A DNA stretch of 64,000 bases from Scenedesmus sp. ARA3 (lineage: Eukaryota > Chlorophyta > Chlorophyceae > Sphaeropleales > Scenedesmaceae), in contig RWJK01001937.1 of the NCBI GenBank assembly GCA_004335835.1, positions 35,717 through 99,716 on the forward strand, written 5' to 3'. Position 1 is the stretch's first letter; each line of letters starts with the position of its first letter. Shown piece by piece: positions 1,271-63,514 of the stretch. Under the pieces are notes generated by a model. The model did not search any database. It had not been told where the DNA came from and saw only the letters and a list, made by a program, of their open reading frames with translations. The position numbers and the translations under genes were made by a program.

Positions 1271-4200
1271 TCACAGCGACAGCCACAGCAGCATCGAAAC
1301 AGCCAGCCAGCTGCATCGGGAACTCACCGCAGAACAGATTGCCGCACTGCAACAAGGCAGCACAGCATGGCACCTCGGGCGCAGCCGGCACATCACAGGG
1401 TCAACTGTAACAGACCTGCTAGGGTTTGACTGTCCTGCAATCAACCGCCTGCTGGCAGCACACGGCGTGTACCATGCAGTCAAAGACAGCAGGCAAGGGG
1501 ATGCCAAGCTGGCAGCAGCAACAGCAAAGCTGCGGGGAGAGGCAGCTGCAGCAGCAGGCCGCATGGGGCCGTTTGGGATGCTGTCCTGCGAGTTTGGCAA
1601 CAGGTGTGGCAGCAGTAGCCCACCCACCATGTGTTGCGCAGCAGCAGGAACACCGCAGGGCTGTCCAGTGAAACCTTGGCTTCATGCAGGCACAATGGCT
1701 TGGTTATCTGTCAGTGCAGTTGTAACAACAGCAGCAGCAGCAGCAGCAGCTTGCCAGGCATGTGTCGATGCAGAAGCACCCTGCTGCAGCAGCTGCTGTG
1801 AGCACGTTGCCCCTGTTCATGCTGCCGCCCGCTATGCATCGGCCAGCCATCACGCACCCGGACACCCAGCTCCTGAGCATGCCGTAGTCATGCCTGGCTG
1901 CAGCCGCGCGCTTGCTCACCTGCTGTACCATTCATCATGCCTGCAGACATGAGGCTGCAGGGCTGCAGACCCTCACGAGCATGCCGGAGATATTCTCGAG
2001 TGGCTGATGTATCCCTGCTGTTCTGCTGCACATGCTACTTGCAGGCACGAGGCTGCAGGGCTGCACACCCTCATGAGCTATGCACCACCTGGTGCTGCGC
2101 TCATCGATTCCGGCTTTGTCAGCCTCAACCCGCAGCTGGTGGCAGCTAACCCGGCCTTTTACGGCAGCATCCTCAACCCCAGCAACAGCAGCAGCAGCAG
2201 CAAGTGCTTAGGCAGTTTGGGCCCTTTAGATGCCAGCTTGTTCAGTGAGCTGCGCGTTGGCTGCTCGGTGGATGGCCTGTTGGCAGTGCCTGATGGGACT
2301 GCAGCGCAGCAGCCGCTGGTGCGCGAAGGCGGCAGCATCAGGCGGGCGCCCCCCTTCACATGGATCGCTGACGCGGGCTACAAGGTGAGAAGCACACATG
2401 TATTCGAAATGTCCATAACCAGGGGGAGCTGTCACCAGCTGTAAGGTTTGAAAAGACGGTTGCGAGTTCTATTTGTTTGGGACTGGGGTTTGCTTAGTGG
2501 ATGGGCTGCTGACGGTGCCTGCTGGGACTGCTGCAGCTCAGCAGCCAGCGGGGCAGCAGCAGCCGCTGGTGTGCGAAGGCGGCAGCATCAGGCGAGCGCC
2601 TCCCTTCACGTGGATTTCTGATGCAGGCCACAAGGCAGGGCTTTGACTCAACTGCCCTGCGGCATTCCACGTCACAGTACGTTTCCACCCTTCAACCATT
2701 CTAATCACATATTCGTCCGCTCCTGCTCGTACGTTTTGTGGGCCTTTTGTGAGTTGTCCAGCAACCCCTGCCCTGCAGGCTGCAATGGTGGAGGTCAAGT
2801 GCTACTGAATTAGCCGTGCACCTAGTGGGTGGCAAGCCCTGGGCCTTTAGGGTGCGGAGTGTAGGGTTCAGGGTCAGCTCTTGATTGACTGTGGGCTGTG
2901 CTGTGGTGCAGGCTGTGGTGCGCGGCAAGCGTCGGGCATTTGGGGTGCTAGCCAGCCCTACCAATCATTTAGCCCAAAATTGGGATCCTACTTTAATCAA
3001 CAAATGCATGTGTGATCAAGCTATGTTGTGTGTCTTGTGCTGCAGGCTGCGGTGGTGGAGGTCAAGTGCCCCACCCCTTACCACCCAGTGGGTAGCAAGC
3101 CCTGGGCCTTTGGCTAGCCAGCCCTACCAATCATTCCTGCCAAGCTTGGGATCCTATGTTGACAAACAAATGTATGTGTGATCAAGCTATGTTGTGTGTC
3201 TTGTGTTGCAGGCTGCGGTGGTGGAGACCAAGTGCCCCACACCGTACTACCCAGTGGGTGGCAAGCCCTGGGCCTTTGGGGTGCGGGCAGCCCTGCGGGT
3301 CATATGCCTCGAATTGGGCATGCCTTGTTGAACAGCAATCGTCATCTCATGCTATGTTGTGTCTTGTGCTGCAGGCTGCGGTGGTGGAGGTCAAGTGCCC
3401 CACGCCTTACTACCCGGTGGGAGGCAAGCCCTGGGCATTCGGTGTGCGCGGGGCGAGCGGCTACCGGCCTTATAAATTTATGAAGGCGCACTACTACTGC
3501 CAGGCACAGCTCAACATGCTGGTCACAGGTACGACTGGATGGCAGTGTGCTGTTTGTTATGAAGAACGTAGTATGTGGTTTGTGGGGGGGCCTTACTAAT
3601 GCATGAAGGCGCACTACTATTGCCAGGCGCAGCTCATCATGCTGGTCACAGGTGTGTTGCGGGATGTTGCTGTCTTGACAGGCAAGGTGTCATGTGGCGT
3701 GGGTGTGTGAGGTGCAGTGAGATGCGGGGTCGTGCAAGGCACAGCTCAACATGCTGGTCACAGGTGGGAGGGGTGCGGGGTGCGGTTGCATTTGACGACT
3801 GTCGACCGCCAGGGAGGTGAAAGAGGTGTGGCGTGTCTGGCTTGATGGTGGCAGCTGAGCAGGGCTGAACTCAGTGCGTGTCAGTGCAATGGTGGCAGTG
3901 CCATGAGTGTGGACATGTATTTACACAACGCGCTGTATCTCACTGCCTGCTGTCATTCCAGCTCAACTCGCTTTAGCTGTTTGCTTACGGCATGAGCTGC
4001 TGCTGTTTTGTGCTGTGCTGCTGCTGTGCTGCTGCTGTGCTGCTGCTGTGCTGCTGCGCAGGCACTGAGCTGTGTGTGTTTGTGGTGTGGACGCGCACCC
4101 GCACGTGGCTGCTGCACATCCCTGTGAACAAGCCCTGGCTGCATGCACTGCTGCACCTGCTGAAGGCAGTGCACAACAGATACGTGGCACCAGCAGCAGC

Positions 4201-8903: not shown

Positions 8904-8944
<41 letters not shown>

Positions 8945-9139
8945 GTGTGTGGCAGCTGTGTGGGGAAGCCGCCCAGCAGTCCTATTGTGGGCAGTGGCAG
9001 AGTTGCAGATACAGCTGCGCGGCATGCAGCTGCAGGCAGCACGTCTCCTGGCTGCAGCAGCATCAATGCAGACGCAGCCGCTTTTGCTGTGGTTGCGCCG
9101 GCGGCATTAGTACCATCAGCAGCAGCAGCGCAGGTCTGA
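1271..9139 (+). CDS. YqaJ-type (lambda-exonuclease-like) nuclease with giant Gln/Ala-rich tail, 5' partial
   Basis: Six exons join in phase: 1271-1603, 2045-2384, 3375-3528, 4062-5076, 5332-5630 and 5916-9139 (TGA), giving 1,787 residues from the first visible base. The first exon has the YqaJ opening (QGSTAW...ITGS). A Glu follows in FGNRHEAAGLHTL, an Asp in VGCSVDGLL, the E-x-K pair in VVEVKCP (3384-3395) and the Tyr/Gln motif in YYCQAQLNMLVTG. ELCVFVVWT and LHIPV follow as in the family. These match the acidic and Lys active-site residues of the PD-(D/E)XK-like YqaJ recombinase domain, which resects DNA in phages; in eukaryotes such genes are often tied to viruses or transposons. The last exon codes about 1,070 residues of Gln, Ala and Ser runs with little predicted fold, far beyond the usual domain of about 150-200 residues. 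Introns carry many exon echoes. The domain call is strong; the cellular role is unknown. Confidence 0.82.
1941..1980 (+). repeat. Exon echo, upstream copy of acceptor and exon start (YqaJ exon 2045-2384)
   Basis: ctgcag plus 34 bases match the acceptor and first 34 bases of the real exon at 2045 (about 30 of 34 identical). It reads HEAAGLQTLTS against HEAAGLHTLMS, and then diverges. Confidence 0.75.
2497..2634 (+). repeat. Exon echo, downstream copy of exon end (YqaJ exon 2045-2384)
   Basis: Repeats the last ~120 bases of the exon in frame (VDGLLTVPAG... to WISDAGHK against VDGLLAVPDG... to WIADAGYK), with an in-frame insertion of about seven codons. The donor GT has become GC. Most differences outside the insertion are synonymous or conservative. 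Confidence 0.85.
2779..2868 (+). repeat. Exon echo, degenerate copy of catalytic exon start (YqaJ exon 3375-3528)
   Basis: ccctgcag is followed by AAMVEVKCY and then a stop codon. The rest still matches GGKPWAFGV at the DNA level. A worn remnant follows at 2912-2948. Confidence 0.8.
3046..3113 (+). repeat. Exon echo of catalytic exon start, copy 2
   Basis: gtgctgcag acceptor plus 68 bases coding AAVVEVKCPTPYHPVGSKPW. By hand, five synonymous and two amino-acid differences from 3375 onward. Part of a ~168-bp tandem unit that includes the preceding intron end. Confidence 0.88.
3212..3297 (+). repeat. Exon echo of catalytic exon start, copy 3
   Basis: gtgttgcag acceptor plus AAVVETKCPTPYYPVGGKPW and GVR. 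By hand, about eight synonymous differences and one amino-acid change (Val to Thr, between the Glu and Lys of the active site). Confidence 0.88.
3603..3651 (+). repeat. Exon echo, copy of exon end and donor (YqaJ exon 3375-3528)
   Basis: Codes MKAHYYCQAQLIMLVT followed by a GT donor. Three base differences from the exon, two synonymous. Confidence 0.88.
3735..3763 (+). repeat. Exon echo, second copy of exon end and donor (YqaJ exon 3375-3528)
   Basis: The last 29 bases of the exon (AQLNMLVT) followed by a gtggga donor, in the intron about 235 bases past the real donor. Confidence 0.8.
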
Positions 9140-17061: not shown

Positions 17062-17063
17062 TG

Positions 17064-23921: not shown

Positions 23922-25876
23922 ATGGGGCAAAACCAGAGTGCTCCTGGGGGTGGGCCCCCGGGAGCTGGGGAGCAGAAAAAGAAAGATCAGGTGGGTACAG
24001 CACTGTGATGCCACCCACAGGTTGATTGGCCTGGGTCGTTTGTCTGCATCAGATCGCCGTCCGTGGACTTCTAGTAAAAGCATGGTTTCTTTTAGCACGT
24101 TTTTGGATGCTGGGCCATTAGCATCTGCATGCATGGCAGCAACTGCTCACCATTGCAGCAGCAGTGTCAGTTGCAGAGTTGCTGTGCATGCCACATGCAC
24201 CAGAGCCAGCACGTCTTCTTCTCTTTGGTTTATGCAGTTCCTCTCTACACGTCTAACCACAGCAGTGCATCCCAGCCACTATCCTCAATCAGACCCAAAG
24301 CAGCGCACCAACAACAGTTGCAGCCACGCCCTGCACTTGCTGCACCCATCGCCCGTGGCAGTTCCCCACCCCTGTGCCATTTCACCCAGGTCTTCACCCC
24401 CCACACCACCTCCACTTGATACATATCCATACATACACATCACACATATTTTGCACAAACCCCACACTTGCAGGAGAAGAAGAAGAAGTGGGAGCCCCCA
24501 GCCCCCCCTCCCCGCGTGGGCAAGAAGCAGCGCAAGCGCGATGCAGCCAGCGGCCTGGGCAGCAAGCTTCCTGCAGTCACTCCAGCAACCAAGTGCAAGC
24601 TGCGGCTGCTCAAGCTGGAGCGCATCAAGGACTACCTGCTGATGGAGCACGAGTTTGTGCAGAACCAGGAGCAGCTGCGGCCGCAGGACGAGCGCAATGA
24701 AGAGGACAGGTCAAAGGTGGGGATGTGCTGCTGATGTTATGCTGCAAAAGAAAGCAGCAGCCATTGTGTGCAAAAACAACAGCAGGCATGCAGGGAGATG
24801 TAGATACTGCACTGGGCTCCCTGTCTCTGCAGGTGATGCACAATCACCGCAGTGGCAACTGCGAGCTGGTCCTGGCAAGTGGAATTGGCTGCTGTGCTTC
24901 CTACGCCTGCCATCAGCTGCTGGGCTATGAGCGTGTCTGCACCTGCGGAGCACAGTGAAGTGACATGCTTTGCTCTGACTTTGCTGCTTTGTGTCCGCGG
25001 TTTCTTTCTTTGCAGGTGGATGACCTTCGCGGGTCTCCGCTCAGTGTAGGCAGCCTGGAGGAGATCATTGATGAAAAGTGAGCAGCGGCAGCAGCAGCAG
25101 CGCAGCAACAGAGGCAGCGGCAGCGCAGGGCAGCGGCGGAGCAGTAGCAGCGCGGCAGGTGCAGGAGCAGCAAAGGAGTGTCTAGTGGTGGTGGCAGCAG
25201 CAGCAGCAGCATGGTAATTGCCGCAGAAGTCAGCAGGCTGCAGCTTGAGTTTGTGGTTCCACCAGGATCAAGGTTGTAGTTGCAGCTGTGTGCACATGCT
25301 TTATGAAAGCGGTCAAACTGGGGCAATCGTGGCTTAGTATCTTGCAGCAGATGCTGTATGCCTGCAGCTCTGAACTTAAAAGCTTGTTTGCAGCTGTGGC
25401 ATGCCAGTCCCTTACGCTCAAGCTTGTGTGCAGCATGCCTACACCTGTTGCGGTTTGAACAGCCAGCTGGTGATGGCTGTGCTGGCATTTTAACGTCAAC
25501 TGTCTGCACTGCTGCTGCTGCATCGCGCCATCGTTACTGCGGCGTGCAGCCACGCCATCGTGAGCAGCACGGTGGGCCCCGAGTACTACGTGGGCATCCT
25601 CTCCTTTGTGGACAAGACGCAGCTGGAGCCGGGCTGCAGCGTGCTGCTGCACAACAAGGTGAGCCAGATAAAAGCTGCTGCTGCTGCTGCTGCTGCTGCA
25701 ACTGCAATGGTGTTGCTGCAATGACGTTGCTGCAGCACTGGTGCTGCTGCGTTGTGCAGCAGCATGGCAGACCTGTTTTGACTGGGCGAGCAGCCGCCGG
25801 TATTGTAGGGTGCACCAGCAGCAAGGGCACTGCCGTGACATTGCGGCGCTTGCACCTGCAATGGCCTCATCGACGC

Positions 25877-25909
<33 letters not shown>

Positions 25910-28900
25910 AGGTCATGTCAGTGGTAGGCATCCTGCAGGACGAGACAGACCCCATGGTGTCAGTCATGAAGGTGAGGCAGGGCAGCCACGCTTTCATCAC
26001 AGCAAGTCATGCAGTTTGATTAAAGGGCATACACTACTGCAACAGCTGTGTCCTGCATGGTGTCAGTCATGAAGGTGAGGCGGCGCAGCCTGGGCTGTGC
26101 TGCTGGGCCTTCAGCACGTTATGTTATCTTATTGTAATGCGTGCAGTAGCGTCAGCTGTATCCTGCCTGTTGCTGGAAGTCAACATTGGACACTGGGCTG
26201 ATGCGCAGCGCATGTTCCTTTGACGACTGCAAGCAACAGGTGGCTGCTACAAGAGGCCGGCTAGCATGGTCTTATGCATCTACCGTTTTGTGGAGTACAA
26301 ATGTTCTCTGATCGCTCATTTGCAGTCGCTGCAACTGGACAGTCAAAGCACATTTGTACTCCACTGCGCTGGAATAGCCTGTGTGTCGTGCTACATATGC
26401 GCGCTCGACGGACATTGTGTAGGCCATGAAAGTTATCCACATTCATGACTGTTTGTGTGGCCAGGCCTCTCTACCGCTGCCCCTCGTAGTCTCTGCATGG
26501 TTGGCATCATGCCCGGCCTCCAACCCTTGAGGCTGTGCGTGACACACAGATAACGCCTGCGCGTGCGGTTGCACCGTCACCATTCTGCATGCTCTGCTGG
26601 TACTTTCACCAGGTGGAAAGCGCGCCGCTGACATGTTGTGGTGATCATCACCGTCATCATCATCATAAGGATAAGCTTAAATCATCATATTACTGCATTG
26701 AACACTGTGCACTGTGTGTTGCTAACAACCCCATGCAGGTGGAGAAGGCGCCGCTGGAGAGCTACACCAATTGTCATTTGCATTAGCACCAGCGACATCC
26801 TTCCTTGAGCAGTATTGATGTACTTTTGACAACCCATGCAGGTGGAGAAGGCGCCGATGGAGAGCTACGCTGACGTGGGCGGGCTGGAGCAGCAGGTGCA
26901 GGAAATTAAGGAGGCCGTTGAGCTGCCGCTGACCAACCCAGAGCTGTATGAGGACATCGGCATCAAGCCACCAAAGGTAAGGGTTTAGGGGCCTGGGGGT
27001 ACGGTTGTTCCTGCTGCCCCACGTAACCCAGCCGCCGCTGTTGAGCTGCTGCTGCCGCCAGGCGTGATCCTGCCTGCTTGCTGCACTGAGTTCATGCACT
27101 GCCTGAACCGGCCTGCTTGCTGCCCAATGCACGTATCCCTGCAGGGTGTCATTCTGTATGGCGAGCCAGGTACAGGCAAGACGCTGCTTGCTAAGGCTGT
27201 GGCCAACTCCACATCCGCCACGTTCCTGCGCGTGGTGGGCAGCGAGCTCATTCAGAAGTACCTGGGTGATGGGCCCAAGCTGGTGCGGGAGCTGTTCAGG
27301 GTGGCGGATGAACTCAGCCCCGCCATCGTGTTCATAGGTGAGGCCGGTGTATGTGTTTGTTTGTATTTACAGGCAAAGCGCAGCGCTGTGTAGTTATGTG
27401 CATCCAAGCACAGCCTCGGCATGGTGTGCTTGTATCGTGTCACTGTCAGGGTTTTAGGTGTGTGGTTTTGTGTTTTGGTTGGGCAGCGAGTCGATTCAGA
27501 AGTACCTGGGTGATGGGCCCAAGCTGGTGCGGGAGCTGTTCAGGGTGGCGGACAAGCTGTCCCCCGCCATCGTGTTCATAGGTGAGCGGTAGCAGGAAGG
27601 CGCAGTAGTTTATAGATGCACTTCACCGCATCACACGCTCCCTCGTCTTTTTGGTCAAGCCCGCTGTCAGTTTCTGCCAAGCTGCAGCTGCAGTGCTATA
27701 GTACAATCAAAGCTTGCGCTACCGTCATTGTCACTGCTGTCGTTCTGCTGCATTGTTGTTGTGCTGCAGACGAGATCGACGCCATCGGCACGAAGCGCTA
27801 CGACAGCCACAGCGGCGGCGAGCGCGAGATCCAGCGTACTATGCTTGAGCTGCTCAACCAGATGGACGGCTTCGATGCACTCAGCGAGGTCAAGGTGCGG
27901 CGGTTTGAACGTTGTTACTTGTTACTTTGACTTGTTTGACTGCTGCTGTGGTGGGTGTGGCATCCAGCGCACCATGCTTGAGCTTCTATCACATGGGGGT
28001 GCGACACTGCGCCTGCTGCATCACGCTGATATGCTGTCATCAAACCCAACACATCCAGCCACCCTCTTGCACTGCTGGCTGCAGGTGATCATGGCCACCA
28101 ACGGCATCGAGACGCTGGACCCGCGCTGATTCAAACCTCTGTCACATCTGTCACAATTTTCAAATGATCGTCTGCGCGGCTCTGCAGGTGATCATGGCCA
28201 CCAACCGCATCGAGACGCTGGACCCCGCTCTTATCAGGCCGGGCCGCATCGACCGCAAGATCGAGTTCCCGCTGCCAGACGCAAAGACCAAGCGCCGCAT
28301 CTTTGGCATCCACACAGGTGACCACGCGTGCTTGTGTTTTGACCAACAATATTATGTCTGTTATGTGACAATTCAAGCCAATAGGCCCAAGCTCCACTGG
28401 AGCAGAAGGAGGAGGGCATACTGTGCCTGAATGTGTGTACGTGTTGCGCATGTGCATTGACCGCAAGATCGAGTTCCCGCTGCCAGATGCAAAGACCAAG
28501 CGCCGCATCTTCGGCATCCACACAGGTGCGGCCACGTGTTGATGCGGGGGGGAGGAGCCTGTTATATGGTTTCAATGGGCTTACTTAAAAATGCATGCAA
28601 GCAGATAGCGATGCAGCCTGGAGGAGTACGTGATGGCGTTCCTCACACTTTTCTGAATGCTGCACACCACACATTGCCACCATTTGTCAGTGCTTCTTTC
28701 ATGCACCGCTCGCCGCAAACTGCAGGCCACATGACGCTGGTCAATATTGTCAACCTGGAGGTGTTTTTCATGGCATTTCCACGCTTCCTTGCGCTTCACT
28801 TGGTCATCTTGTGTAACATTCCTTTCATGCATTGCACGCTGCCCTGCAGGCCGCATGACGCTGTCTGAGGACGTCAACCTGGAGGAGTTTGTCATGGCCA

Positions 28901-29571
28901 AGGACGAGCTGAGCGGCGCAGACATCAAGGCGGTGTGCACAGAGGCGGGGCTGCTGGCACTGCGCGAGCGGCGCATGCGCGTGACACAGGTACGCTGCTT
29001 TTTTCTTGGGAAAATGCATTTGTAGCTGCCCTGGTCAGGCGTGTGATGGATTGGGCAGCTAGCGCTATTGATAGCTGCTGGCGCTGCGCGAGCGGCGCAT
29101 TTGCGTGACGCAGGTGTGCCGCCCTTGGATGAAAACGTATTGCTTCTGAGTCCAGTTGTATGCCGCAGCCATATGATGTGTTGTCACGAGCTGCTGCATG
29201 CGCCCCTGCTGTACAAATGGCTGAGTCGCTGGCACAGTGAGGCGGCTGCTGGGTGCTGGCGTGTGAGGCATTTCCTTGTCAGCCTGTTGCTGCCACAGCA
29301 CCGCAGCTCGGCACTCTAGCTTAATGCGCGCCGCTGCAACAGAAGTGCATGCCACCAGGGCCTTGACTTCAACCCTGTCACTCCCTGGCGCCTCCACACT
29401 GACAGTTAATCCTCTACCCACCACTCCCGCGGTGCAATAATAACTGTGTGGTTACCTGCTGCTGTTGGCTGCTCCTATTGCTGCTGCTGCTGCCAGGCTG
29501 ACTTCCGCAAGGCCAAGGAGAAGGTGCTGTACAAGAAGAAGGAGGGCGTGCCTGAGGGCCTTTACATGTAA
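23922..29571 (+). CDS. RPT2: 26S proteasome regulatory particle AAA-ATPase subunit RPT2 (446 aa)
   Basis: Eleven exons: 23922-23990, 24474-24716, 25016-25077, 25550-25658, 25912-25971, 26842-26976, 27145-27337, 27770-27894, 28188-28317, 28850-28989 and 29497-29571; 1,341 nt, exactly 447 codons. RPT2 forms part of the hexameric ring that unfolds ubiquitylated proteins and opens the 20S gate. The N-terminus [10 protein letters not shown] keeps the Gly2 that is myristoylated in RPT2. [15 protein letters not shown] is the N-terminal helix, [13 protein letters not shown] the OB fold, GEPGTGKT (residues 232-239) Walker A, IVFIDEID (~287-294) Walker B across the exon 7/8 join, and [15 protein letters not shown] the SRH/Arg-finger region. 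The C-terminus GLYM is the HbYX gate-opening motif. Length matches plant RPT2 (~443). Introns hold nine echoes of neighbouring exons, yet the spliced frame is perfect. Three TGTAA motifs follow the stop. Confidence 0.97.
26056..26074 (+). repeat. Exon echo, copy of RPT2 exon 5 end and donor
   Basis: Repeats the last 19 bases of exon 5 (MVSVMK) and its gtgagg donor, 103 bases downstream of the real donor. Confidence 0.8.
26613..26632 (+). repeat. Exon echo, worn copy of RPT2 exon 6 start
   Basis: A ttcaccag acceptor followed by gtggaaagcgcgccgctgac, resembling the exon 6 start gtggagaaggcgccgatgga. Confidence 0.55.
26739..26768 (+). repeat. Exon echo, copy of RPT2 exon 6 acceptor and start
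   Basis: cccatgcag plus [10 protein letters not shown], then it diverges. The real exon at 26842 reads [11 protein letters not shown] after the same acceptor. Confidence 0.88.
27484..27581 (+). repeat. Exon echo, copy of RPT2 exon 7 end and donor
   Basis: 98 bases repeat the exon 7 end ([20 protein letters not shown] to SPAIVFI) plus the donor. Differences include GAT/GAC, CTC/CTG and a Ser AGC/TCC switch, all silent; E/K and L/S are the amino-acid changes. Confidence 0.92.
27961..27990 (+). repeat. Exon echo, internal piece of RPT2 exon 8
   Basis: IQRTMLELL is recoded with four synonymous changes relative to 27829-27858; the last codon differs (Asn/Ser). Confidence 0.8.
28085..28130 (+). 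repeat. Exon echo, copy of RPT2 exon 9 acceptor and start
   Basis: ctgcag plus [14 protein letters not shown] and then TGA. One substitution (Arg to Gly) and a one-base deletion set it apart from the exon at 28188. Confidence 0.9.
28458..28525 (+). repeat. Exon echo, copy of RPT2 exon 9 end and donor
   Basis: 68 bases with three differences from 28250-28317; the two inside codons are silent (GAC/GAT, TTT/TTC). A GT donor is present, no acceptor. Confidence 0.92.
28726..28773 (+). repeat. Exon echo, copy of RPT2 exon 10 acceptor and start
   Basis: A ctgcag acceptor then gccacatgacgctgg, aligning with the exon at 28850 ([13 protein letters not shown]); several substitutions (LEVFFMA). Confidence 0.8.
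29074..29113 (+). repeat. Exon echo, copy of RPT2 exon 10 end and donor
   Basis: [13 protein letters not shown] followed by GT, against [13 protein letters not shown] at the real exon end. Two differences are silent. Confidence 0.88.
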
Positions 29572-31618: not shown

Positions 31619-32611
31619 TTACGCCGTGTCCATGTCGCTGCTGCTGCTGTTTGCGTCCTGCCACTCAGCCTTGCGCCGCGCCTTCTCCCCCGCATCCAGC
31701 AGGAGCACAGGAATGCCCCTGTCCTTGCACAGCCTCGTAACAAGCTGTGTGGTGGTGTGGCTGTTCCAGCGCGTGGGCATGTACACCTCGTCAATCGTGC
31801 CCGCTTTGATTGCGGCTTCTAGGCGCTGCAGCTCTCCCCTGCCTGTGTCCCGCGGACTGCCAAAAAAGCGCACCTGCAGGGCAATGAGTTGCAGGAAACA
31901 CACTTTGGAGAAGCACAATGCCAGATAATACTCATTCGCGTGTCTGGATGACTTGACCTGAGCAGCAGCAGAGCAGAGCAGCCATGTTGATGTATGCAGT
32001 TGAATGATGTGGCAGTTGCACCTCGTCAATTGTGCCCGCTTTGATTACAGCTTCCAGGCGCTGCAGCTCTCCCTGCCTTTGTCCCACGGACTGCCAAAGA
32101 AGCGCACCTGCGGGGCGAGGATGTCAGTCAGTCACGCCCGGGTGAGGCATAAGGGTATAAAGAGTTGCAGGATACACACTTTACGAACGCACAATCGTCA
32201 ACATTAGGCTCAGTCACACGTCTAGGCATACGGGTATGTGTGCCAGCACACCACACAGTGTGGCGCTGCATGCGCAACAGACAGCAAGGCTGCATGTATG
32301 TACACATGGCTGAGGCGACATGTCGTATGTGGTCACATGCGTGCATGTGTGTGTGTGTGTGTGTGCTGATGCCGCACCCAACTCAGCATCATCATCATCA
32401 AATTACCATTATAATTCTGATCATCATCAAATTACCATTATAGTTCTGATCACATGTAAAATTATACTATCAAACCATCATCCAACCATCGCACCCACCT
32501 CAGCATCAGGCGGCAGTGTTTTCCTGTCAGACGGCTTCAAGGCGCGGCCCCCGACAAATGCAACAACCTTCCTTGGGGCAGCATCCTGCGCCTTAGACGC
32601 CTCATTTGATG

Positions 32612-34921: not shown

Positions 34922-35555
34922 CAGCAGCAGAGCAGCAGAGGTCAACAAGAGTTGAAGCTGCAGGAGTGCTGGAAGGGGCTGGTTGCAGCGCGGGCTTTGC
35001 CTCTCCAGAAGAGCGAGCAGTGCTGCAGGTTTAATCCCACCCAGCACGCATTAGCCCTACACAGCGGCATCCTAATGGCATTTGGAGCACGTTCAACTCT
35101 GGCAACAGGCCTTTATCACCCATAGAGTCGCATCATCTTAGAGATATGATAAACAACAAGCAATGATATTCAGTGTGCCTGACTGCAGCTCACCTGGGGC
35201 TCCATGGGATGTTGCTGAGGGCAGCACAGCTGTCAGGCCCCAGCCGCCACATGACTTATACACAGCTGCATTATCATGGCTCTTTCAGCACCTTTGATGC
35301 TCGCAGACTGCCTCTGCGTCCTCAAACCCACTTTTGCCAATGGCAATTGCACACTTTCAACTATGACAACAAGTCTGTATGCCTGACTGCAGCTCACCTG
35401 GGGCTCCAAGGGATGTTGCTGAGGGCAGCACAGCTGTCAGGCCCCATGCGCCGCATGCTCTGCAGCAGCAGCAGCGGCGCCTCTGCAGGAAAGCTGGGCG
35501 GCATCTCCACAAACAGCAGCAGTGGCTGCTGGTCAAACTGCAGCTGAAACACCGC

Positions 35556-37718: not shown

Positions 37719-40700
37719 TTAAAAGTAGTCACAGAACAGCAGCCGCTCCCATGCCACCCCCTTGAACGTGAGCTCCTTTGCAACAGCGCTCGCAATGTCC
37801 CCGCCCAGACCAGCCAGCAGCACCGTGGCATCACTCGCCCTGCCACCTAGCACGCTTTCAATACCATGCTCATGCAGGAAAAGACCCTGATCCAGCAGGC
37901 CCATGATGTCAGCAGCAGTGACAACTGCATCGCTGCCGCTGCTGCTGCTGCTGCCGTTGGCTGCAGGAGCTTCGCCATCCTCGCTGCTGCTCTTGAGCAT
38001 GGACTCTGTGTACAGCGGGTGGAAGTTGATCTGGGGTTGCGGCAGTATGCAGCAGAGAAGAAAAGGCAGCAAAGAGAGGGCAGCATTGTAGGTGTTTTGA
38101 CCGGCCAAGGGTTTTGTGCATTGCTTTTGAGCATGGCCTCTGTATACAGCGGATGGAGGTTGATCTAGCGGCAGCAGACAGCAGATCAAAATGCGACATA
38201 AGGCAGCAAGATGAGCGTAGAGGTGGTGGCCAGGGTCGGAGGAACAAGCATGACAGCTTGGCACTACTGCTGGCATTGGCTGGCAAGCCATGCCTCTCCC
38301 TGCACCGGGCCAGGAAAGCAGCACGCAAGCACAACAATCTTTTACGTGTAAGCAGCTGAATGTATCAGCAACTCCCCACGCACAAGCATCTGCTGACAGG
38401 ACAGCCTGCCCACGGCACAAACCTCATCACCTCAATGCTGCCGCCGCTGCTGCTGCCCCAGCTACTAGCTGCCTGTATAGCTACACTTTCCGCTGGTGTC
38501 TCTGCGCTTCCACAGCTAGATGTATGAATATTGTAGTTGGATGAATCAGCCGCTACCCCTGCCTCACGCCACTGGTGCCACTCCGCCAACTAAGGCAGCA
38601 CTGCTGGGGCTCATGGTCACATACACGCAGCTGACGCGGTGGCTGGCGGCCACCTAGCAACGCCACCTGCAACCTGCAATTCTGACACGCTTGCTGCCGT
38701 CAAGCAAACACTACCCTAGCCTAGGGTTCAGCTGCTGCCTCTTTAGCCATGCAACGCTGGCAACATCTGTAGCTTTACATCTAGCTTTGTATCACTCACC
38801 CCTGCCTCACGCCACTGGTCCCACTCCGCCAAGAAAGCAGCGCTGCTGGGGCTCTTGGTCACATACACGCAGCTGACCCTGTGGCTGGTGGCGTGCGCCT
38901 GCACGGGCGCCCAGTTGAGCACTGCGCGCATTGCAGCAATGCCGCGCAGGCCGACTGCGATAGCCAGGATGTTGCGCTGCTCCTGTGATGCAAAACAGCA
39001 AGCAGTAATGAGTGCGGAAGAAGGTGCAATCACAATCCCGCGCAGGCCGACTGCAGTGGCCAGGATGTTGCGCTGCTCCTGCGGTGCAAAAAGCAAGCAG
39101 CACCAATATCGGACAGCAGATGCACACATCACAAGCTATGCAGCTGCCATGCGCCACACAAGCTGCTGTCCCTGCCGCGCCTCCATCGAGCTGGGCAGGC
39201 CTGAGTAGCTGTTGAAAAGCGAGGCCACACTATGCAACAGGAGCAACATAACATACTGCTCCTGTTGCAATGTCTGACTTACGACGTTATTACACGAACC
39301 TAGTATGATGTAGGCCATAGTGTGCTTGCATGCAACTGACTGTAACCTTCCTGTCAGCAACACACAGCTGCACATGCGCCATGCTGTACAAAAAAGTGCT
39401 GCCAGCCCTTACCTCCAGGGAGCTGGGCAGGCCTGAGTAGCTATTGAACAGCGAGGCAAAGCCACGGCCCACAACCTGGCTGACCTGCAACAGCAACAAG
39501 GCATCATTGCAGCAATCGGGCAGCCACAGACATGAGCAGAAGAATCAGCACAAATTGTAGGAATTGCAGAAAGTCAGCACAACAAGCTGCCAAGCAGCTG
39601 AGCTGTTCAACAGCACAGCAGGTGCGGCGCCTGTTTCGGAGATCCTGCCCAGACACACCGCAGCTCGCTTGAATACATGTCGTACACGTTGCCACGCCAC
39701 CTGTGATACAAGCTAACTGGTGCAGGAAGAAGCAGCACACCGTCTTCATCCGCAGTAGGTGCAAGCATGGTCGGCTGTGCCCGACCATACGCTTATGCTT
39801 TGCATGTTTGCATGCGTTTGTAACACGTTGTGCGCACCTCCACAGTCGCGCCTGGCGCCATGTCTGCCAATGTCGACTGGTCCCCGCCGTTGCGCTTGTC
39901 AATAACCACCTGCGCAGCAGACACAGCACAGCGATTGGAGCATAGGGCGAGATGGTGCGCCTGCTGTAAGAAACATCTATGCATGTGTGATGCACCATGC
40001 AGCATCCCTGGACCACTTTTTCGATGCATCAGCTGCAGACAGATATAGCACAGGTATGCAAGAGAACTGCTACTGCTCCTGTGGCGCTGTTGCTATCACA
40101 GCTCTGCAGGACAGCTCCAACAGTCCCCAAAACAGCTGCAGCATCTGCTGCTGCTGCTGCTGCTTGGCCATCCCACCTCAATGATGGAGCCCCCGATGTA
40201 TGCTGAGTCTCTCCGTGACTCGTACGGTGAGCATGCGATAGTGTACAAGTGCTGGTTGTCTGCTAGCCCGTTGGTCTCGTCCTGTGTGGTTGGCCGCACA
40301 CCCACAAACTGCCCAGGGACCTGTCAACATGGAAACAGACAAGTGCAGAAGAACCAAAACGTACAGCGCCATGCGGTGCGTGGTGTCAGATATGTTGCTG
40401 AATCAAGCATACCTTGCATTGCTGTTCAGGTGGCAGGTGATCAACGCTGACATATGCAGGATGCATGCATACTGCTTTGTACTGCCCTGCAGTGCAGCAA
40501 TGCACCTAAGTCGCTTGCCGCCCATGCCCATAGGTTGTGCTGCAATTTTAAGCTTGCAAGCAGGCAGGGCTTGATTTGTACCGTACTACGCTTATGTAAG
40601 CACATGCTGCTGCATGCAGCGCCCAGCACTGCACAACGACTGCAGCAGCTGCTAGCAATGATTGCTGCTGCCCCTTGCTGCTCTGTATTGCTGCAAAGAA

Positions 40701-43544: not shown

Positions 43545-45803
43545 GCAATGGCGAGGCCAGCCCCCGGAAGCTGGCAAATGTAAATGCAGCAACAGCCATC
43601 TTCAGCAACGGCGCGCCAGTGGCACCAGGTGCGTGGGGTGCGCATGCCGTGTCACAGTCTGTGGCTGTTGATGTGGACATGCAAGCATGGCTGCATGGCA
43701 GCATGGCATTTCTGGTAGCAAACTGACACACAGGTGCTCGAGCACAAATTTCTTGCTTGTCTGCAATGCTTGGTCTTGTTGCTGACGTGCGCCCCTTGTC
43801 TCCTTCACTCAGCTGCCGTCGGCCTATGCTGTATCAACTCCCTATGGTCATGACTCTCAAACCCTGCCTGCTTACCTCACCATTCGCCATTCCTGCAGCT
43901 CCATCCGCATACGAGCCCAAGTTGTTGCTCCTTATATTGCCTATATGGCAGACTCTGACTTCACCTGCACCGACTGCCTTCACCGCTCATGCCACTCCTG
44001 CAGCTCCATCCGCATACGAGCCCAAGCTCGCAGCCACAGGCGCCAGCAAGCACCCGCAGCTGTCAGATGCGGGCAGCATCGAGCAGGGCCCTGAAACTCC
44101 TGTGCTCGCATACGCAGCCTCGCCAGTGCATGCAGGCTCTGGCGGCGGGACAGCAGCAGCAGCTGGTGCGTCAGCGCAGCCGCAGTCGGCAGAGGAGCGT
44201 GCTGCTGCGCTGATGCAGGCTGTTGCGCTGGAGGGGCTGTCTCCTGAAGCATCTATTGCGGCGCTGCAGCAGCTGAACTATGATTTGACCATGCAGGTGA
44301 GCTGAGGGTTGCAAATGCATGCAGCGGCAAGAGCAACACATACATCTGCAGGCTTGTGTATGCCTACAAGTGTATGCTGTCTGGGGCACCACTGCACTGC
44401 ACTGCAGCTGGTTGTGCTTGACGGGGAAGTTTGCAGGAAAACAGCAAATTACAGGGGCCTGCAGTCATTGCACAGTGTGCACTGTGGGAGCCATGGAGCT
44501 ATGCAACACACTGCCAGTCACCCTCGTAGCACTGCAGCCAACTGAGTTGCCGTGTGCTGCGCTTGCTGCTGCTGTCTGCTGCTATGCATCTGCCATGCTG
44601 CTGCGAATCTGTCTTGCGGCTGCAGCTGGGCCTGTACCAGCAGATGGTTGCTCGACTTAAGGATGCAATGGAGCAGGGCGACCTGGAAAAGGCAGAGCTA
44701 GAAGCAGACAAGCTAGCACTAGAGGCTCAGCTGCATGTGGTGTCCAATGCTGTAGCAGCAGCAGGCGGCGACCACAGCCAAGCAGCAGCGCTGATGGCTA
44801 CTGCCAACTCGGCTGGGTCAGTAACGGGCGGCGGCAGCAGGGCGGGTAAGGGAGGCTGGGGCTTCTTCTGGCGCCGCACAGGTGCTGGTAACACTGGTGA
44901 TGATGAGCAGGGCGAAGGCAGCTTGGCAGATGCAAGCAGCATTGGCCTGGCATCCCTCAATAGCAGCAGGCGCTCTAGCTTAGATCTTGATGCAGCACAG
45001 CAGCAGCAGCAGCAGCAGCAGCAGCTTGGCGCTGGGGGCTCGCCTACCGTGCAGCACAGCAGCAGCAGGCAGTCTGGCGCGGCTCCAGGCACACCAAACA
45101 GCGCAGCTGCAGATGAGGACGGGCAGCAGCAGCAGCAGCAGCTGCAGCGGAGCAACAGCGGCGACGCCTCGCCGCAACACCAGCAGCAGGGGCGCGTCAG
45201 CAGCAGCAGCAGCCCCTCGCTGCAGCCAGCCGGCTCTGGCAGCTCGCCTGCTCCGGCTGCAGCAAGCAGCGTGGCTGCACTGTTCACTGGGCGGCGAGCG
45301 CGCGCAGCAGCGCGTGCTGCATCTTCAGCAGACTCACTGCAGAAGGAAATGAAGGAGCTGCGGCGGCAGCTGACTAGCGTGCAGGTGAGAGGGAGCTTGG
45401 TGTCAAGCTGAATGCAGCGCTCTCTCGTGAGAGCAGCATCTTTTTAATGCACTGCCGTGTACCGGCACATATGCAAGCAGAAGTTGCGGCGGCAGCCGAC
45501 TAGCATGCAGGCAAGGGGGTGTTTTGAGACGGAGCTTGATGTCAAGCTGACTGCAGCAATCTCGTGTGAGCAGCACAATGTGATGCTCTGTCGTGTAGCG
45601 GCACATATGCACGCAGAAGTTGCGGCGGCAGCTGACTAGCATGCAGGAGAGGGTGCTTTGAGAGGGAGCTTGACGTCAAGCTGAAATGCATAGCTCTCGT
45701 GTGTGAGCAGCATCCTGCAATGCTCTGCCGTGTAGCGGCATAAATGGCAGCAAAGGCTGCAAACGCTCGCAGGAATTGCACTGGAAAGCTGCAACTGCGC
45801 CTG

Positions 45804-52253: not shown

Positions 52254-52728
<475 letters not shown>

Positions 52729-58407: not shown

Positions 58408-60801
58408 ATGCAGCAGCCACGCAGCAGTGACCAGGGGCTTCCCCTGGTCTTCAGAGATGAGTCACTCGATGAATATGGAGCAACAAAGCAAGCAGACCCA
58501 TACAACCCCTTTGCAGTGCCTCCTGCAAGGCAGAACACCCTGCGCAGCTCGGCGCCAGGCGTGCTGCTTGCAAGAAATGACGGCAGCAACCCTGCCAGGT
58601 CAGCTGCAGGAGGATTCGTGAGCCCATTTGCGTCCTTTAGCGGCAGGAGCAACAGCAGCAGCGGTGGCGGGCAGTATCCGCTGCCCGTTTTCCCGCCTGT
58701 GGCTGTGCAAGGAAACTTCAACAGCAGCAACAGCAGCAGCGTCAGTGCCAGCAGCGGAAGCAGCAGCTTCAGGACCCGTGGAGTGCCACCACTGGCAGCA
58801 GCTGCCATGGCAGCAGCAGCAGCAGCAGGACCAGCGCAGGACGAGCGGATGATGTACGGACAGGAAATAGCATCGGACTATGCAATGACGCCGGAGCAGG
58901 CAGCAGCAGCAGAGGCAGAGGCTGCTGCAGCTGTTGGAGGTGACACGCGTGCACTGCGTGACACCTTCAGCATGGGTGGCGCCTTTCCACCCATCAACAG
59001 CAGCTACCCCAACATCTCTGCTGCAGGCGCTGCTGCAGCATGTGACGCAGCCGGCTATGCAGCAGCAGCAGCAGACCAGCGCTTTCCACTAGTGCAGCAG
59101 CACTCACTGCCACTAGTGCCGCCACCGCCAGCTGCAATGCCGCTGCACGGCTATGGCGCTGCTGCTGATGTGCCTCATAGGCCCATGGGCATGCTCAACC
59201 CTGCCAACTGGTTTGCGAAGAAGCAGGCACCCCCGGCCGGCCCCAGGCCATCAGCACTGCAGGTGAGAAAAGAGAACATGTAGAGGTGTTTGCTGCCAGC
59301 GATGCACCACAAAGGTGCAGTTTTTGGCTTCGCATGGCAGCATTTGCCACTCAACCAGGTCAAGCAAAAGCGTAAGACGCGCTTGCACTTGCAACCTTGC
59401 TAACAAACCAGCAACTTGGTGGCTCGTTTGCAGCTCACGAACACAAACCACTGTATATCACACACTTTGTGGCGCACACTGCAGGTGGCGGCCTCCCGCA
59501 TGCCAGAGCGCGTGGTGTGGGCACCCCGCAAGGCCGGCAGCCCATGTGAACAGCATGTGAACACACAACCAACATGTCCACATGCTGTTATGCACACTGC
59601 AGGTGGCAGCCTCTCGCATGCCTGAGCGTCTAGTGTGGGCGCCCCGCAATTACAAACTGATATCTTCAATTCCTGTTCCGTTATGGACTGCAGGTGGCAG
59701 CCTCCCGCATGCCCGAGCGCGTGGTGTGGGCACCCCGCAAGGCCCCCAGGCCAACCAAGCTGCACTTCAGCCCTCTGGCGCTGCTGCTGCTGCTGGCGTT
59801 CCTGGGTGCTGCCGGCTACTACTTCTATGTGCGCGTGGCCTTCACCCTCAACATGGGCAGCCACACCTGGTGAGGAAAAGATGGGCGTATACATGTGTGC
59901 TGCTTGATGCTGCTTTTGATGTGCGCAGATTTGGGTTGTGGCGTTCATGGAATGCTCAAGATGAGTGGCCATACCTGGTGAGCAACAGCAGAGCAGCGGA
60001 GGTCTTGTGGTTTGTTGATGCCTGTGCTGGTACTGGCGGTGGCGATCCTTGGGCTCTCTGCAGCAGCACTGTCCAGCATGCTGCGGTATATGTCTTTCGC
60101 ATGCCTGCTTGCTGCAGGTACGGCGTGCTGGTGCTCGTGGTGGAGATCATTGGGCTCACAGCACTAGTGCCATAGCAGAACTCAACCCAACTATTGTCTA
60201 AACTGTCTACTCATATCCTGCAGGTACGGCGTGCTGGTGCTGGTGGTGGAGATCATCGGGCTCACAGCCGTGGTGCCGTACGGCATGCTACTGCCCTTCC
60301 ACACCCTCAGCAGCGGCAGCAAGGGCCTGCCTGTGGATGATGGGCGGGCCATCCTGCCGCCTGAGAAGCGCTTCAGGGTGCACATCCTGGTGCCATGCTA
60401 CAAGGTGAGCTTCCTGCAAGGGTTCTTATTCGGGGTCTTTCCTGCAAGGGCCTGCCTGTGGATGATGGCAGGGCCATCCTGCCGCCTGAGCGCTTCAGGG
60501 TGCACATTCTGGTGCCATGCTACAAGGTGAGAGTATCTGATAATTTGCACTTCCTGGTCATTTTGCAAGGGGGTCGGCTGAAGGTGGTACTCTGGTTTGG
60601 CCCCCTGGAGAGCACTCACGGCATGAGCAGCTGTGCTCCATATCACAAAACCTTGGATGGGTGGGCTGTGATGTTGTAACGGCTGGCGCAGACTGAAGGA
60701 GGGGTTACGCAATATGCTTCGGTAGCATCCCACCAACCTGCACCTGTGACTCTCCTTCCATCTTGTTGTCAGTGCTGTGTCTGGGCCTGTGTTGACAATC
60801 A

Positions 60802-60842
<41 letters not shown>

Positions 60843-63220
60843 AGGAGTCACTGGAGGTGATCACCAACACCGTCACAGCTGCGCTGGCTGCGGAGGTGCC
60901 CCCTGGCGTCACCCGAGTGCTGTACCTGTGCGATGACGGCAAAGACCCGCAGAAGGCTGACTTCATCGCAAGCCTTGCTGATGAGGCACAGTGAGTTGCA
61001 TGCCTGAATTCGATCAAATCACGTGCTGTACCTGTGTGATGACGAAAAGGACCCTGCCCAGGCTGAAGGTATTGCAAGCCTGGAACATGAGGCGCAGTGA
61101 GTTTATCTGGAACTTCCTGCGCTGTATATCTAGCCGGTGATACTGGTAATAAGTCAACAATGCGGAGCAGGTGCTGAAGTCAAATGCATTACATTACATT
61201 ACATTACATGCTCCACTCAACGAGGAGTGGGAACCCCAGTCAGGAGCCAACGNGAGGCTCATAGGGGGAGGAAACATCGAAGAACAACTCATCAACGTCC
61301 AAACCGTCAGACGAAAACGCAGAAAAAAACTCATCAGCATCATCAATAGCTTGAGCAATAGCCTGAGAGGACAGAAGGACCTCAGGATCAGTGTCCGGGT
61401 GACACCGCATCAAACAGCAGCAGTGCACAAAAGCAGCCACCAAAGCAGGTGCCTGCTTCATAAAAGTGATCATGTCATCGCCTGCTGGGTGGCAACCAGC
61501 AATAGTAGCCCATGTTTGTGACGAGCCCCGAAGGGTAAATGCGTAGCCAATGTTAGACCGCGCGCAGTCTGCTGCCCCCTGTCAATGCGTGATTTGCAAG
61601 TTTCTTATTTGCAGCTTGCGCTGGCTGCCCTTGCAGGTATGTGTCAGGCCGCAGCCGTGCTCCAGGAGAAATCAACGGCAAGAGCGCCAACCTGAACAAC
61701 TGCCTGCGCAACGTCATCTTCAAGGAGTATGAGGGGCGCGCAGCGGAGATTCCTGCAAGGGAGCTGGTGGTGGTGTTTGACGCTGACATGGCAGCGCGCC
61801 GGCACTTCCTGCTCAAGGTGGGTGCGAAGTTCAGGGTGTGAAGTTCGGCCGTGAACTGTGAACTTTGACGTTTGGATGGGGGAATCTCAGCAAGGGAGCT
61901 GGTGGTTGTGTTTGACGCTGACATGGCAGCGCGCCGGCACTTCCTGCTCAAGGTGGGTGTGAAGTTCAGGGTGTGAAGTTCAGGGTGTGAGATTTGGCTG
62001 TGAGTTGAATTTGATGGTGTGGAGGGGGGATATTGCAACGGAGCTGGTGGTGGTGTTTGATGCTGACATGGCAGCGCGCCGGCACTTCTTGCTCAAGGTG
62101 GGTGCGAAGTTCAGGGTGTGAAGTTTGGCCGTGAACTGTGAATTTTGATGGTAGGATGGGGAGATGCCTGTAAGGGAGCTGGTGGTGGTGTTTGACGCTG
62201 ACATGGCAGCGCGCCGGCACTTCTTGCTCAAGGTGGGTTGCAAATTCAAAATGTGACACTTGACGCTCAACTGTGAACTTTGATGTCAAGGTGGCTGCAA
62301 GCGCGGCTGCAATCAAAGGTCAAGCGCTGCAATCACAGGTTAAGCGCAATCGAAGGTTCAGGCTGCAATCAAAACTTGAGCGCCGCTGTGACATATGGAG
62401 CTGGAAGAAGTTACTGCATGTACAACATGTCACATGACGGCTGTCCTGCAAACTTTCCTGCAGGTGCTGGAAGCCATGTGGGACGACAGCATCAGCCTGT
62501 GCCTGACGCCCCAGGCCTTCTCAAACATCAACCCCGGCTCTGACATCTTCAACAACATCAACCAGCAGTTCTGGCAGTATGTACTGCCCGGCTGCGATGC
62601 GCTGGGCTACATCGCCTGCACAGGTGGGCGGATGATGTTACCTGCGATGTAATCTGTGCGAGCTTTTGTGCAGCCTAATAGGAGATCGTATGTGCAACCT
62701 GACATGCAAACCCGCCAGCTGCGATGCGCTGGACTAATTGCCTGCGCAGGTGGGTGGAGTTGGAGTTGCAGCATGTACTGGCTTTCCACTTCGCCCTCTG
62801 CACATGGTGTGCCGCGTTGTGACAAGCTACCGTCTGCCTGCTTCTCAACTTCTGCTTAAACTATGAAGCTGATGATGACAGCTTGGGTGCATGACAAAGC
62901 TCTGCATCACCCTAAACAAAGGTTTGTTGCGGCTCTGCTTTTCCTGTGCAGGCACAAACTTCTGTCTGCGTGCGCGCAGCCTGGCGGCAGTGGGCTGGTT
63001 CCCCGAGTACACCATCACAGGTAGGGTGACAGACACGCAGGCGGTTTGATGCAGATGGTGTTGTTGCCTGACTTTGTGCCTCTGAGCCCTGCAGCATAAG
63101 TAGGGAAGGCTGCAAGTGGCTTGAAACAGACAGTGGCATGCTGCAGTGCTGCCAGCGGCATGCATAGCAACACATAACAGGGTGGTCCTGCTGGTTGTGC
63201 TTGTTGAATGCTGGCGCTGA

Positions 63221-63270: not shown

Positions 63271-63514
63271 AGAGGACTATGCGCTGAGCATGGAGCTCAA
63301 GTCAGCGGGCTTCAAGGGCACCTACCTGTACAGCAACACAACACATGTACTGCTTACGATAAACTGCTGCTGCTGCTGCTGCTGCTGCTGCAGAGGACTA
63401 TGCGCTGAGCATGGAGCTCAAGTCAGCAGGGTTCAAGGGCACCTACCTGAACGAGTACCTGGCGGTGGGCGAGGCGCCGGATGAGATCCGCAACGTGTGC
63501 AGGCAGCGCAGCAG
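58408..63514 (+). CDS. GT2 processive glycosyltransferase (BcsA/cellulose-synthase-like), 3' end beyond window
   Basis: Exons in phase: 58408-59262, 59694-59869, 60224-60404, 60845-60990, 61637-61817, 62464-62623, 62952-63020 and 63394-63514 (629 residues so far). The first 285 residues are a disordered Ser/Ala cytosolic region starting MQQPRSSDQGLPL. Two membrane segments follow (PLALLLLLAFLGAAGYYFYV; YGVLVLVVEIIGLTAVVPYG). The GT-A domain has CDDGKD (Asp ~434-435), GKSANLNNCLRN, the DAD metal site (501-503), FNNINQQFWQ, GTNFCLRARSLAAVGWFP, the TED base (~589-591) and QRSR, which meets WTKGH at 63873 to make QxxRW. This is the signature of membrane synthases of beta-glucans and related polymers. 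The product is not predictable; cell-wall or extracellular polysaccharide is inferred. Introns hold ten echoes and one LINE copy. The transmembrane C-half lies outside the window. Confidence 0.93.
59485..59536 (+). repeat. Exon echo, copy 1 of GT2 exon 2 start
   Basis: cactgcag then VAASRMPERVVWAPRKAG. Two silent differences from the exon at 59694 before it diverges. Confidence 0.92.
59603..59652 (+). repeat. Exon echo, copy 2 of GT2 exon 2 start
   Basis: cactgcag then VAASRMPERLVWAPRN. Four silent changes, Val/Leu and Lys/Asn. Confidence 0.92.
59961..59977 (+). repeat. Exon echo, copy of GT2 exon 2 end and donor
   Basis: atgagtggccatacctg plus gtgagc, against atgggcagccacacctg plus gtgagg at 59869. 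Confidence 0.7.
60118..60175 (+). repeat. Exon echo, copy of GT2 exon 3 start
   Basis: ctgcag then YGVLVLVVEIIGLTALVP and TAG. Four silent changes and Val/Leu relative to 60224; the stop replaces a Tyr codon. Confidence 0.93.
60444..60526 (+). repeat. Exon echo, copy of GT2 exon 3 end and donor
   Basis: GLPVDDGRAILPPERFRVHI and LVPCYK plus GT. Differs from the exon by silent changes only (GGG CGG to GGC AGG, ATC to ATT) and loss of one whole Lys codon. Confidence 0.95.
60810..60843 (+). repeat. (CTG)n against acceptor of GT2 exon 4
   Basis: About 11 CTG units run into ctgcag and the exon at 60845. Confidence 0.92.
61023..61096 (+). repeat. Exon echo, diverged copy of GT2 exon 4 end and donor
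   Basis: Open in frame: VLYLCDDEKDPAQAEGIASL against VLYLCDDGKDPQKADFIASL, then EHEAQ with the gtgagtt donor. It looks like a diverged paralogue rather than junk. Confidence 0.92.
61187..61536 (-). mobile_element. 5'-truncated LINE, copy 2, inside GT2 intron
   Basis: Nearly identical to 15757-16110, antisense to the gene, with the same attac-repeat tail. Target-site duplication AAATGC at 61182-61187 and 61537-61542. Codes only the acidic C-terminal end after the Cys/His cluster. One ambiguous base (n) at 61253. Confidence 0.88.
61891..61952 (+). repeat. Exon echo 1 of GT2 DAD exon end and donor
   Basis: ELVVVFDADMAARRHFLLK plus gtgggtg. One base differs from the exon (61761-61817) within the shared codons, and it is silent. 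Confidence 0.95.
62041..62097 (+). repeat. Exon echo 2 of GT2 DAD exon end and donor
   Basis: The same 19 codons, two silent differences (GAC/GAT, CTG/TTG). The intron start is copied with it. Confidence 0.95.
62172..62232 (+). repeat. Exon echo 3 of GT2 DAD exon end and donor
   Basis: The same 19 codons, one silent difference (CTG/TTG), donor gtgggtt. Confidence 0.95.
62715..62749 (+). repeat. Exon echo of GT2 exon 6 end and donor
   Basis: cagctgcgatgcgctgg, then an indel-broken copy of GYIACT and a gtgggtgg donor. Confidence 0.82.
63222..63329 (+). repeat. Exon echo with its own (CTG)n acceptor, GT2 exon 8 start
   Basis: A (CTG)16 tract, cag, then EDYALSMELKSAGFKGTYL, followed by unrelated sequence. 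The real exon at 63394 follows a shorter CTG tract (63364-63391). The two differences are silent. Confidence 0.95.

Follow-up and report, generated by a model that had tools for sequence, protein, structure and literature searches.

Copies of exon edges in the adjoining introns of a green alga, and a possible origin in tandem duplication across splice junctions

Short copies of exon edges lie in the introns of Scenedesmus sp. ARA3 next to the exons from which they derive. These copies, here called echoes, are a real and common feature of the genome. Two classes are found, as the earlier note on this DNA had described: an acceptor site with the head of its exon, copied upstream, and the tail of an exon with its donor site, copied downstream. 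The birth of an echo is most simply explained by tandem duplication across the exon edge, because the intron parts of source and echo are on average related and whole units are repeated in the RPT6 gene. The window is the whole stretch of 64,000 nucleotides that was analysed (G000:C1512:35717-99716), and the genome searched is the 87-Mb assembly of 1567 contigs.

When the window was compared with itself after masking of simple repeats, 46 direct pairs scored at least 45 bits; they fall into 28 clusters with lags of 40-700 bp. This agrees with the figure of about 40 short intronic exon-edge copies proposed earlier. No inverted pair of at least 45 bits was found within 1500 bp in the window. Once the bit threshold is dropped inverted pairs do appear (40, against 95 direct pairs, within 3000 bp in the window), so the strand bias is valid for the better matches. 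The sampled loci contained one inverted pair at 45 bits or more, and one inverted pair was found in the nine modelled genes. The lags of 22 window clusters tested are 96-135 bp in 14, 163 bp in one and 204-244 bp in seven. Three stretches of the window (3.8-14.1, 17.2-25.9 and 45.8-59.4 kb) are free of clusters in the comparison at 45 bits or more. A spaced sample of 20 loci, taken at even steps down the contig list and covering 179,091 bases, contained 161 pairs of at least 45 bits, with at least three pairs in 12 of the loci. Local duplication is thus very active in this genome, as had been suspected. Among the 59 sampled clusters lags of 99-140 bp occur in 24 and of 212-264 bp in 17, while the other 18 lie elsewhere.

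The protein-proved exons of the window are those of RPT2; the remaining 21 clusters were classed by visual inspection. The features are listed by window position and strand.

1942..1984, plus strand: candidate acceptor-type copy of a source at about 2040-2083, lag 98, acceptor score 5.2, by eye.
2773..3448, plus strand: acceptor-type array of four copies, first step 267 and then about 162-170 bp, by eye; the last copy continues into an open frame that resembles YqaJ by a Pfam match below cut-off.
3466..3766, plus strand: donor-type array, source exon end at about 3528 and two echoes, lags 123 and 112, by eye.
23922..29568, plus strand: RPT2 (26S proteasome ATPase) gene, 11 exons, from exon-wise tblastn with the Tetradesmus obliquus protein P0002, splice sites checked and four of them adjusted.
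26056..26090, plus strand: RPT2 donor-type echo of exon end 25971, lag 103; its 19 bp of exon are identical to the source and its 16 bp of intron have two mismatches.
26725..26765, plus strand: RPT2 acceptor-type echo of exon start 26842, lag 103-104, from window self-comparison and gene model.
27480..27586, plus strand: RPT2 donor-type echo of exon end 27337, lag 244; the copy takes in 102 bp of exon and has five nonsynonymous differences.
28079..28127, plus strand: RPT2 acceptor-type echo of exon start 28188, lag 103, from window self-comparison and gene model.
28454..28528, plus strand: RPT2 donor-type echo of exon end 28317, lag 208, from window self-comparison and gene model.
28696..28774, plus strand: RPT2 acceptor-type echo of exon start 28850, lag 124-126; 77% match including about 30 bp of intron.
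29074..29115, plus strand: RPT2 donor-type echo of exon end 28989, lag 124, from window self-comparison and gene model.
31776..32116, minus strand: acceptor-type-like repeat pair, lag 235, acceptor score 8.3, minus-strand coding call.
35170..35457, no strand given: repeat pair, at most a candidate edge copy, lag 204, splice-motif score negative.
38555..39457, no strand given: three repeat pairs, at most candidate edge copies, lags 243, 96 and 232, low splice-motif scores.
43886..44026, plus strand: pair of acceptor-type-like copies with a lag of 105, identified by eye and with a negative splice-motif score.
59474..60531, plus strand: three clusters in a putative glycosyltransferase-2-like gene (Pfam match below cut-off; candidate exons), lags 93-209, 106 and 125.
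61745..62286, plus strand: donor-type-like tandem array of four units, the source among them, period about 135, by eye.
62588..62758, plus strand: donor-type copy pair, lag 127, donor score 8.4.
63271..63452, plus strand: acceptor-type echo (63271-63331) and its source, lag 121, acceptor score 6.2.

All seven clusters of RPT2, modelled from a database protein, are exon-edge copies. The joined exons match P0002 at 100% (rounded) with one residue different, the exons of P0002 map in order, and the echoes are absent from this protein record. The DNA is therefore that of T. obliquus or of a strain almost identical with it. A separate observation concerns exon 26842-26976, which reads VEKAPM. The echo near 26738 and the orthologues P0002, P0003, P0009 and P0011 read VEKAPL, so that on translation the echo retains the common residue and the source exon does not. 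When the genome was searched once with RPT2 DNA, no family of repeated introns came to light except for a CTG-rich stretch.

Nine genes were modelled by homology (RPT1, RPT2, RPT3, RPT4, RPT6, three HSP70 relatives and one CCT subunit). Queries of 50 bp from exon edges found a direct copy in the adjoining intron at 32 of 122 edges. A chance origin of these matches is excluded because the controls are near zero: 0/122 for reversed queries, 0/366 for shuffled queries, 1/122 against the introns of other genes and 2/49 for exon interiors. Intron-only tiles of 50 bp matched in 63 of 464 cases, a count that includes tiles in echo arrays and low-complexity tiles, and in 14 of 464 when reversed. With queries up to 120 bp an echo was detected at 34 of the 122 edges (one RPT1 donor edge is left out of the edge counts), and in 31 of these the copy ends exactly at the exon edge. 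The best above-threshold copies lie 98-384 bp from the edge of their own exon. Clustering of all repeats in the nine genes gave 33 edge clusters, 5 intron-only clusters and no exon-only cluster. Each edge cluster touches a single edge and never the whole exon. Accordingly, whole-exon duplication with both splice sites, as in mutually exclusive exons, was not found among the clusters of the nine genes. Copies of the AGGT type (the head of the downstream exon directly after a donor or the tail of the upstream exon directly before an acceptor) were not found within up to 1000 bp of adjoining intron.

Echoes had been described as present in nearly every gene, which is too strong. They are absent from 6 of 13 genes examined (RPT1, L040, L041, L042, L043 and L044), as well as from the three cluster-free stretches of the window. 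The four further HSP70-family loci (L041-L044) have no repeats of at least 36 bits. The echo-free genes are HSP70 relatives, RPT1 and one CCT gene (L041, L042, L043, L044, L016 and L040). Echo rate is heterogeneous among the nine modelled genes (permutation p 0.002), and expression level or recombination may underlie these differences. For two other CCT matches (G000:C1492 and G000:C1032) the Pfam listing contains repeated profile ranges, which suggest that further CCT genes there carry echoes.

The nine genes yielded a set of 52 echoes, of which 24 acceptor and 20 donor echoes reach the edge and 8 more do not. The splice dinucleotide is kept in 40 of the 44 that reach it (AG in 20/24 acceptor echoes and GT in 20/20 donor echoes). 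In the acceptor class the mean identity of source and echo is 0.67-1.00 across the first 41 exon bases and 0.83-1.00 in the last three intron bases. It then falls to background, from 0.92 to 0.38 within 3 bp of the acceptor, 0.38 being the value at the sixth intron base. Donor-class echoes keep the first bases of the donor site, and their similarity has faded by about +10. This sharp drop in mean similarity at the splice junction was missed in the earlier note and is unexplained by simple neutral duplication.

The intron parts are nevertheless more alike on average than unrelated introns (rank test, p 1.4e-5 for acceptor and 2.2e-4 for donor pairs). Intron similarity exceeds the 95% cross-gene control in 13 of 34 pairs (8/16 acceptor, 5/18 donor) and is not individually significant in the other 21. 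Several pairs have exon identity of 90-100% yet no detectable intron similarity. In RPT6 whole tandem units of about 120-137 bp are repeated with exon and intron parts both alike, so that adjacent direct copies contain sequence from the two sides of the boundary, as expected of a tandem duplication that spans it. Arrays reach up to six copies. The full RPT6 units and the related intron parts support the earlier proposal of tandem duplication across an exon edge, with the extra copy tolerated as intron.

How far edges predominate depends on how the genes were chosen. RPT2 was the source of the finding, and RPT6, RPT3, L037 and L039 were fetched after multiple matches hinted at echoes, so 34/122 overstates the genome-wide rate. 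Correction for this bias dropped the 7 clusters of RPT2 and six discovery clusters (three from RPT6 and one each from RPT3, L037 and L039), which changed the ratio of edge to intron-only clusters from 33:5 to 20:5. In a simulation of duplication and decay the detectable life of edge pairs was 1.27-1.36 times that of intron-only pairs, with placement counts of 6222-12322 for edge and 18777 for intron-only pairs. The edge share expected under neutral simulation is 30-47%. The raw share of 33/38 lies above this (p=3.6e-7 at 0.47), as does the corrected share of 20/25 (p=0.0008 at 0.47 and 0.029 at 0.60). The genes chosen without a hint (RPT1, RPT4, L038 and L040-L044) contain 2 edge and 3 intron-only clusters, which makes the size of the excess uncertain. 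The earlier note had made its case depend on edge copies being commoner than intron-only copies. This is so in the modelled genes, both raw and bias-corrected, but not in those chosen without an echo hint.

Splice motifs at repeat ends were also scored. In the sampled loci, at a threshold of 4.5, the motif is present in the right orientation at 17/44, in the wrong orientation at 4/44 and at the centre in 5/44. The difference between right and wrong orientation (Fisher one-sided p=0.001) is given at the best of four thresholds; the other three gave p 0.002-0.03. Among 22 non-full window pairs, RPT2 included, 10 carry a correctly oriented motif and 3 a wrongly oriented one (threshold 4.5). A loose regular expression gave weak results in the sampled loci (donor 12/44 at repeat ends vs 7 at the centre; acceptor 19 vs 20) and in the window (donor 8/22 vs 2; acceptor 8 vs 10), and a PWM form of the test run without the orientation control failed to reach significance in a rank test. 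Codon scoring of the repeats for coding content, whose model was trained on highly conserved genes, was weak as well (above the 90th percentile in 11/59 sampled clusters, with 10% expected, and in 6/22 window clusters). Gene finding with a codon HMM called only 9% coding; it was rejected and kept merely to suggest exons.

Echoes are free of coding constraint as they decay. Where an array has two or more echoes, the echo-private changes are 48 nonsynonymous and 27 synonymous, near the neutral expectation of about 0.72 nonsynonymous (p=0.12), and the source-private changes are 1 nonsynonymous and 10 synonymous, as in a constrained sequence. A first count, which covered only 20 of 34 pairs with 14 of ambiguous frame dropped, is superseded. 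Over all 52 echoes pN/pS is 0.26 (0.19-0.35) vs 0.5 for a neutral echo with a constrained source. The 14 echoes below 88% identity have a pN/pS of 0.45 (0.29-0.75) and no synonymous excess. Synonymous differences in the whole set are above the neutral-echo expectation (113/251 nonsynonymous, expected share about 0.555, p=0.0009). From this we infer that some of the divergence built up at a time when both copies were coding, an outcome to be expected of exchange with other alleles or with members of the array. The best echo per edge has a pN of 0.043. The HSP70 paralogues are echo-free and hence provide no test of echo conservation.

Introns that contain an echo are longer. Among 51 complete introns, five with a likely unmodelled exon being left out, the median is 494 bp with an echo (n=25) vs 264 bp without (n=26; p=0.0002). 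The association may run in either direction because long introns offer more room. The accessible part of a 2018 report gives mean intron lengths of 462 bp in T. obliquus vs 230-302 bp in three other Sphaeropleales (PMC5966456).

Evidence from another alga consists of protein translations of contig ORFs, many of them from metagenomes, rather than of DNA. Read-through frames of RPT6 were searched (12 ORFs in one search and the best 120 of 1447 matches in another). In P0136, P0137 and P0138 one intron end adjoins the source exon, and in P0121 and P0133 that same intron end adjoins an echo instead. P0121, P0133 and P0135 share a second intron end, which adjoins the source. Three tandem copies are present in P0134, and P0139 contains a donor-type copy. 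Among the matches listed, the RPT6 exon head is present in more than one copy in 3/121 ORFs. Six ORFs contain an internal repeat, and two of them (P0147 and P0222) were left out of the echo count. Judged from their translations, these ORFs look like copy-number variants of one RPT6 edge that may have arisen by exchange within exon-edge homology.

We tentatively favour an account whose chances fall just short of even: tandem duplications span exon edges, are hidden by splicing and are reshuffled by exchange within exon-edge homology. Duplications of about 100-150 bp, or double this size, would arise locally at sites that straddle an exon-intron boundary. With the outermost donor spliced to the outermost acceptor, the protein would stay unchanged, so the extra copy would turn into intron and decay. 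Because selection holds the source exon, exon-edge copies would remain alike enough to re-pair. Slippage or unequal exchange in this short homology could add, delete and reshuffle units. The same events could swap the intron flank that adjoins the exon and lengthen the intron. Exchange of this kind may produce both the edge excess and the sharp boundaries. Weighing against this account are the pairs with 90-100% exon identity and no detectable intron similarity, the synonymous excess, the strong differences in echo rate between genes and the 2:3 clusters of the genes chosen without a hint.

Plain neutral tandem duplication might strike at any position; edge copies would then simply be tolerated, and the conservation of one copy would make them easier to detect. 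The near-neutral echo changes, the residual intron homology, the longer detectability of simulated edge pairs and the 2:3 clusters of the hint-free genes all agree with this explanation. We consider it unlikely to suffice, however. The modelled genes have a larger edge excess than a factor of 1.27-1.36 can explain, and the fall in identity within 3 bp of the acceptor speaks against it. Nor does plain duplication account for the missing intron similarity of pairs with 90-100% exon identity or for the synonymous excess. A duplication mechanism aimed at edges, tied to transcription or splicing, would copy exon ends delimited by the splice junction. It would fit the sharp mean boundary, the edge excess and the characteristic unit size, and is doubtful in view of arrays that contain the full intron part and of the RPT2 search, in which the sole repeated sequence was a CTG-rich stretch. 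We know of no enzyme or element that would aim duplication at edges, which also counts against it. The wider proposal that a process in the green algae of this group writes exon-edge copies into adjoining introns, bounded by the splice junction, and drives intron growth genome-wide is similarly speculative and probably incorrect.

An assembly artefact, in which two diverged haplotypes are joined in tandem at exon edges, is highly improbable. Diverged alleles would give alike exons and unlike introns, the assembly contains N gaps, and two reports indicate that a related strain is likely diploid and that another T. obliquus strain was assembled at twice the size (PMC7955037, PMC5552973). Such joins fit poorly with arrays of up to six copies, with edge clusters that never span an exon and with the similar arrays in metagenome contigs. 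The pN of the best echoes, together with RPT2 echoes that lose residues kept by all four orthologues compared, further implies that these echoes are not functional alleles. The earlier note had also raised a functional system of decoy or alternative splice sites. The splice dinucleotides retained in 40/44 edge-reaching echoes (4 lost, and 8 more echoes off the edge) would fit decoy or regulatory sites kept by selection. This idea gains no support from the echo branches, which change near neutrally at the codon level beside a constrained source. That result concerns coding rather than splice-site function. Echoes are also absent from 6/13 genes, and we regard selection for decoys as very improbable indeed.

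Edge-spanning tandem duplication followed by exchange has partial parallels elsewhere. In the potato RdRp gene, as far as the accessible text describes it, a duplicated segment spans an acceptor and exon head and copies the splice signals (PMC4974935). That is one case in which a new intron was made, whereas in the alga many edges are involved and the one protein checked (RPT2) is unchanged. Known intron gain from a duplicated exon segment likewise combines tandem duplication with splicing that conceals the copy; it makes a new intron, whereas here existing introns hold edge copies of their own flanking exons. Repair-mediated proximal duplications in vertebrates are close and short (mean 162 bp) and can include partial exon/intron sequence (PMC2671141, from the available portion). 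Of 824 human donors reported there, 278 are intron and 4 partial exon/intron. Human duplications thus rarely include exon edges, whereas edges predominate in the modelled algal genes and form tandem direct arrays. In Cryptococcus CNN00420 intragenic repeats with splice sites vary in number, for which the authors, in the part of the paper at hand, propose slippage, unequal crossing over or conversion (PMC2395259). There, repeat expansion gives polymorphic whole introns in one repetitive gene, unlike the partial exon edges in conserved genes of the alga. Unequal crossing over with change of intron length is also proposed for the 90-bp exon arrays of Tetrahymena LRR genes, in what is accessible of that work (PMC6564038), but these are whole LRR exons and the algal copies are partial and without coding constraint. 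Single boundary-spanning duplications are therefore already known, as in the potato gene, and the scale described here has no match in our literature search. The search found no report of genome-scale exon-edge arrays within its reach, which most subscription papers and bioRxiv preprints lie beyond.

Echoes offer a direct and countable source of intron lengthening. They suggest that splicing may let edge duplications accumulate unseen. Gene finders and aligners should be used with caution on such genomes, where echoes present many false splice sites. Should duplication prove to be aimed at edges, it would open to test a connection between splicing and change in the DNA.

Other features of the window were noted. 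A Pfam scan of its genes gave one match above cut-off (BACK domain) and others below. Very long CAG-rich open frames (Gln/Ala-rich) lie at 4559-8941, downstream of the YqaJ-like region. An array with a 45-bp period at 14182-14390 has an acceptor-like consensus with CTGCAG, and its period is below that of the echo arrays. A 106-bp tandem array at 16734-17155 has about four copies that are 80% alike. Direct copies of about 370 bp at 49542-49908 and 52358-52728 are 92% alike and, at 2.8 kb apart, dispersed rather than tandem.
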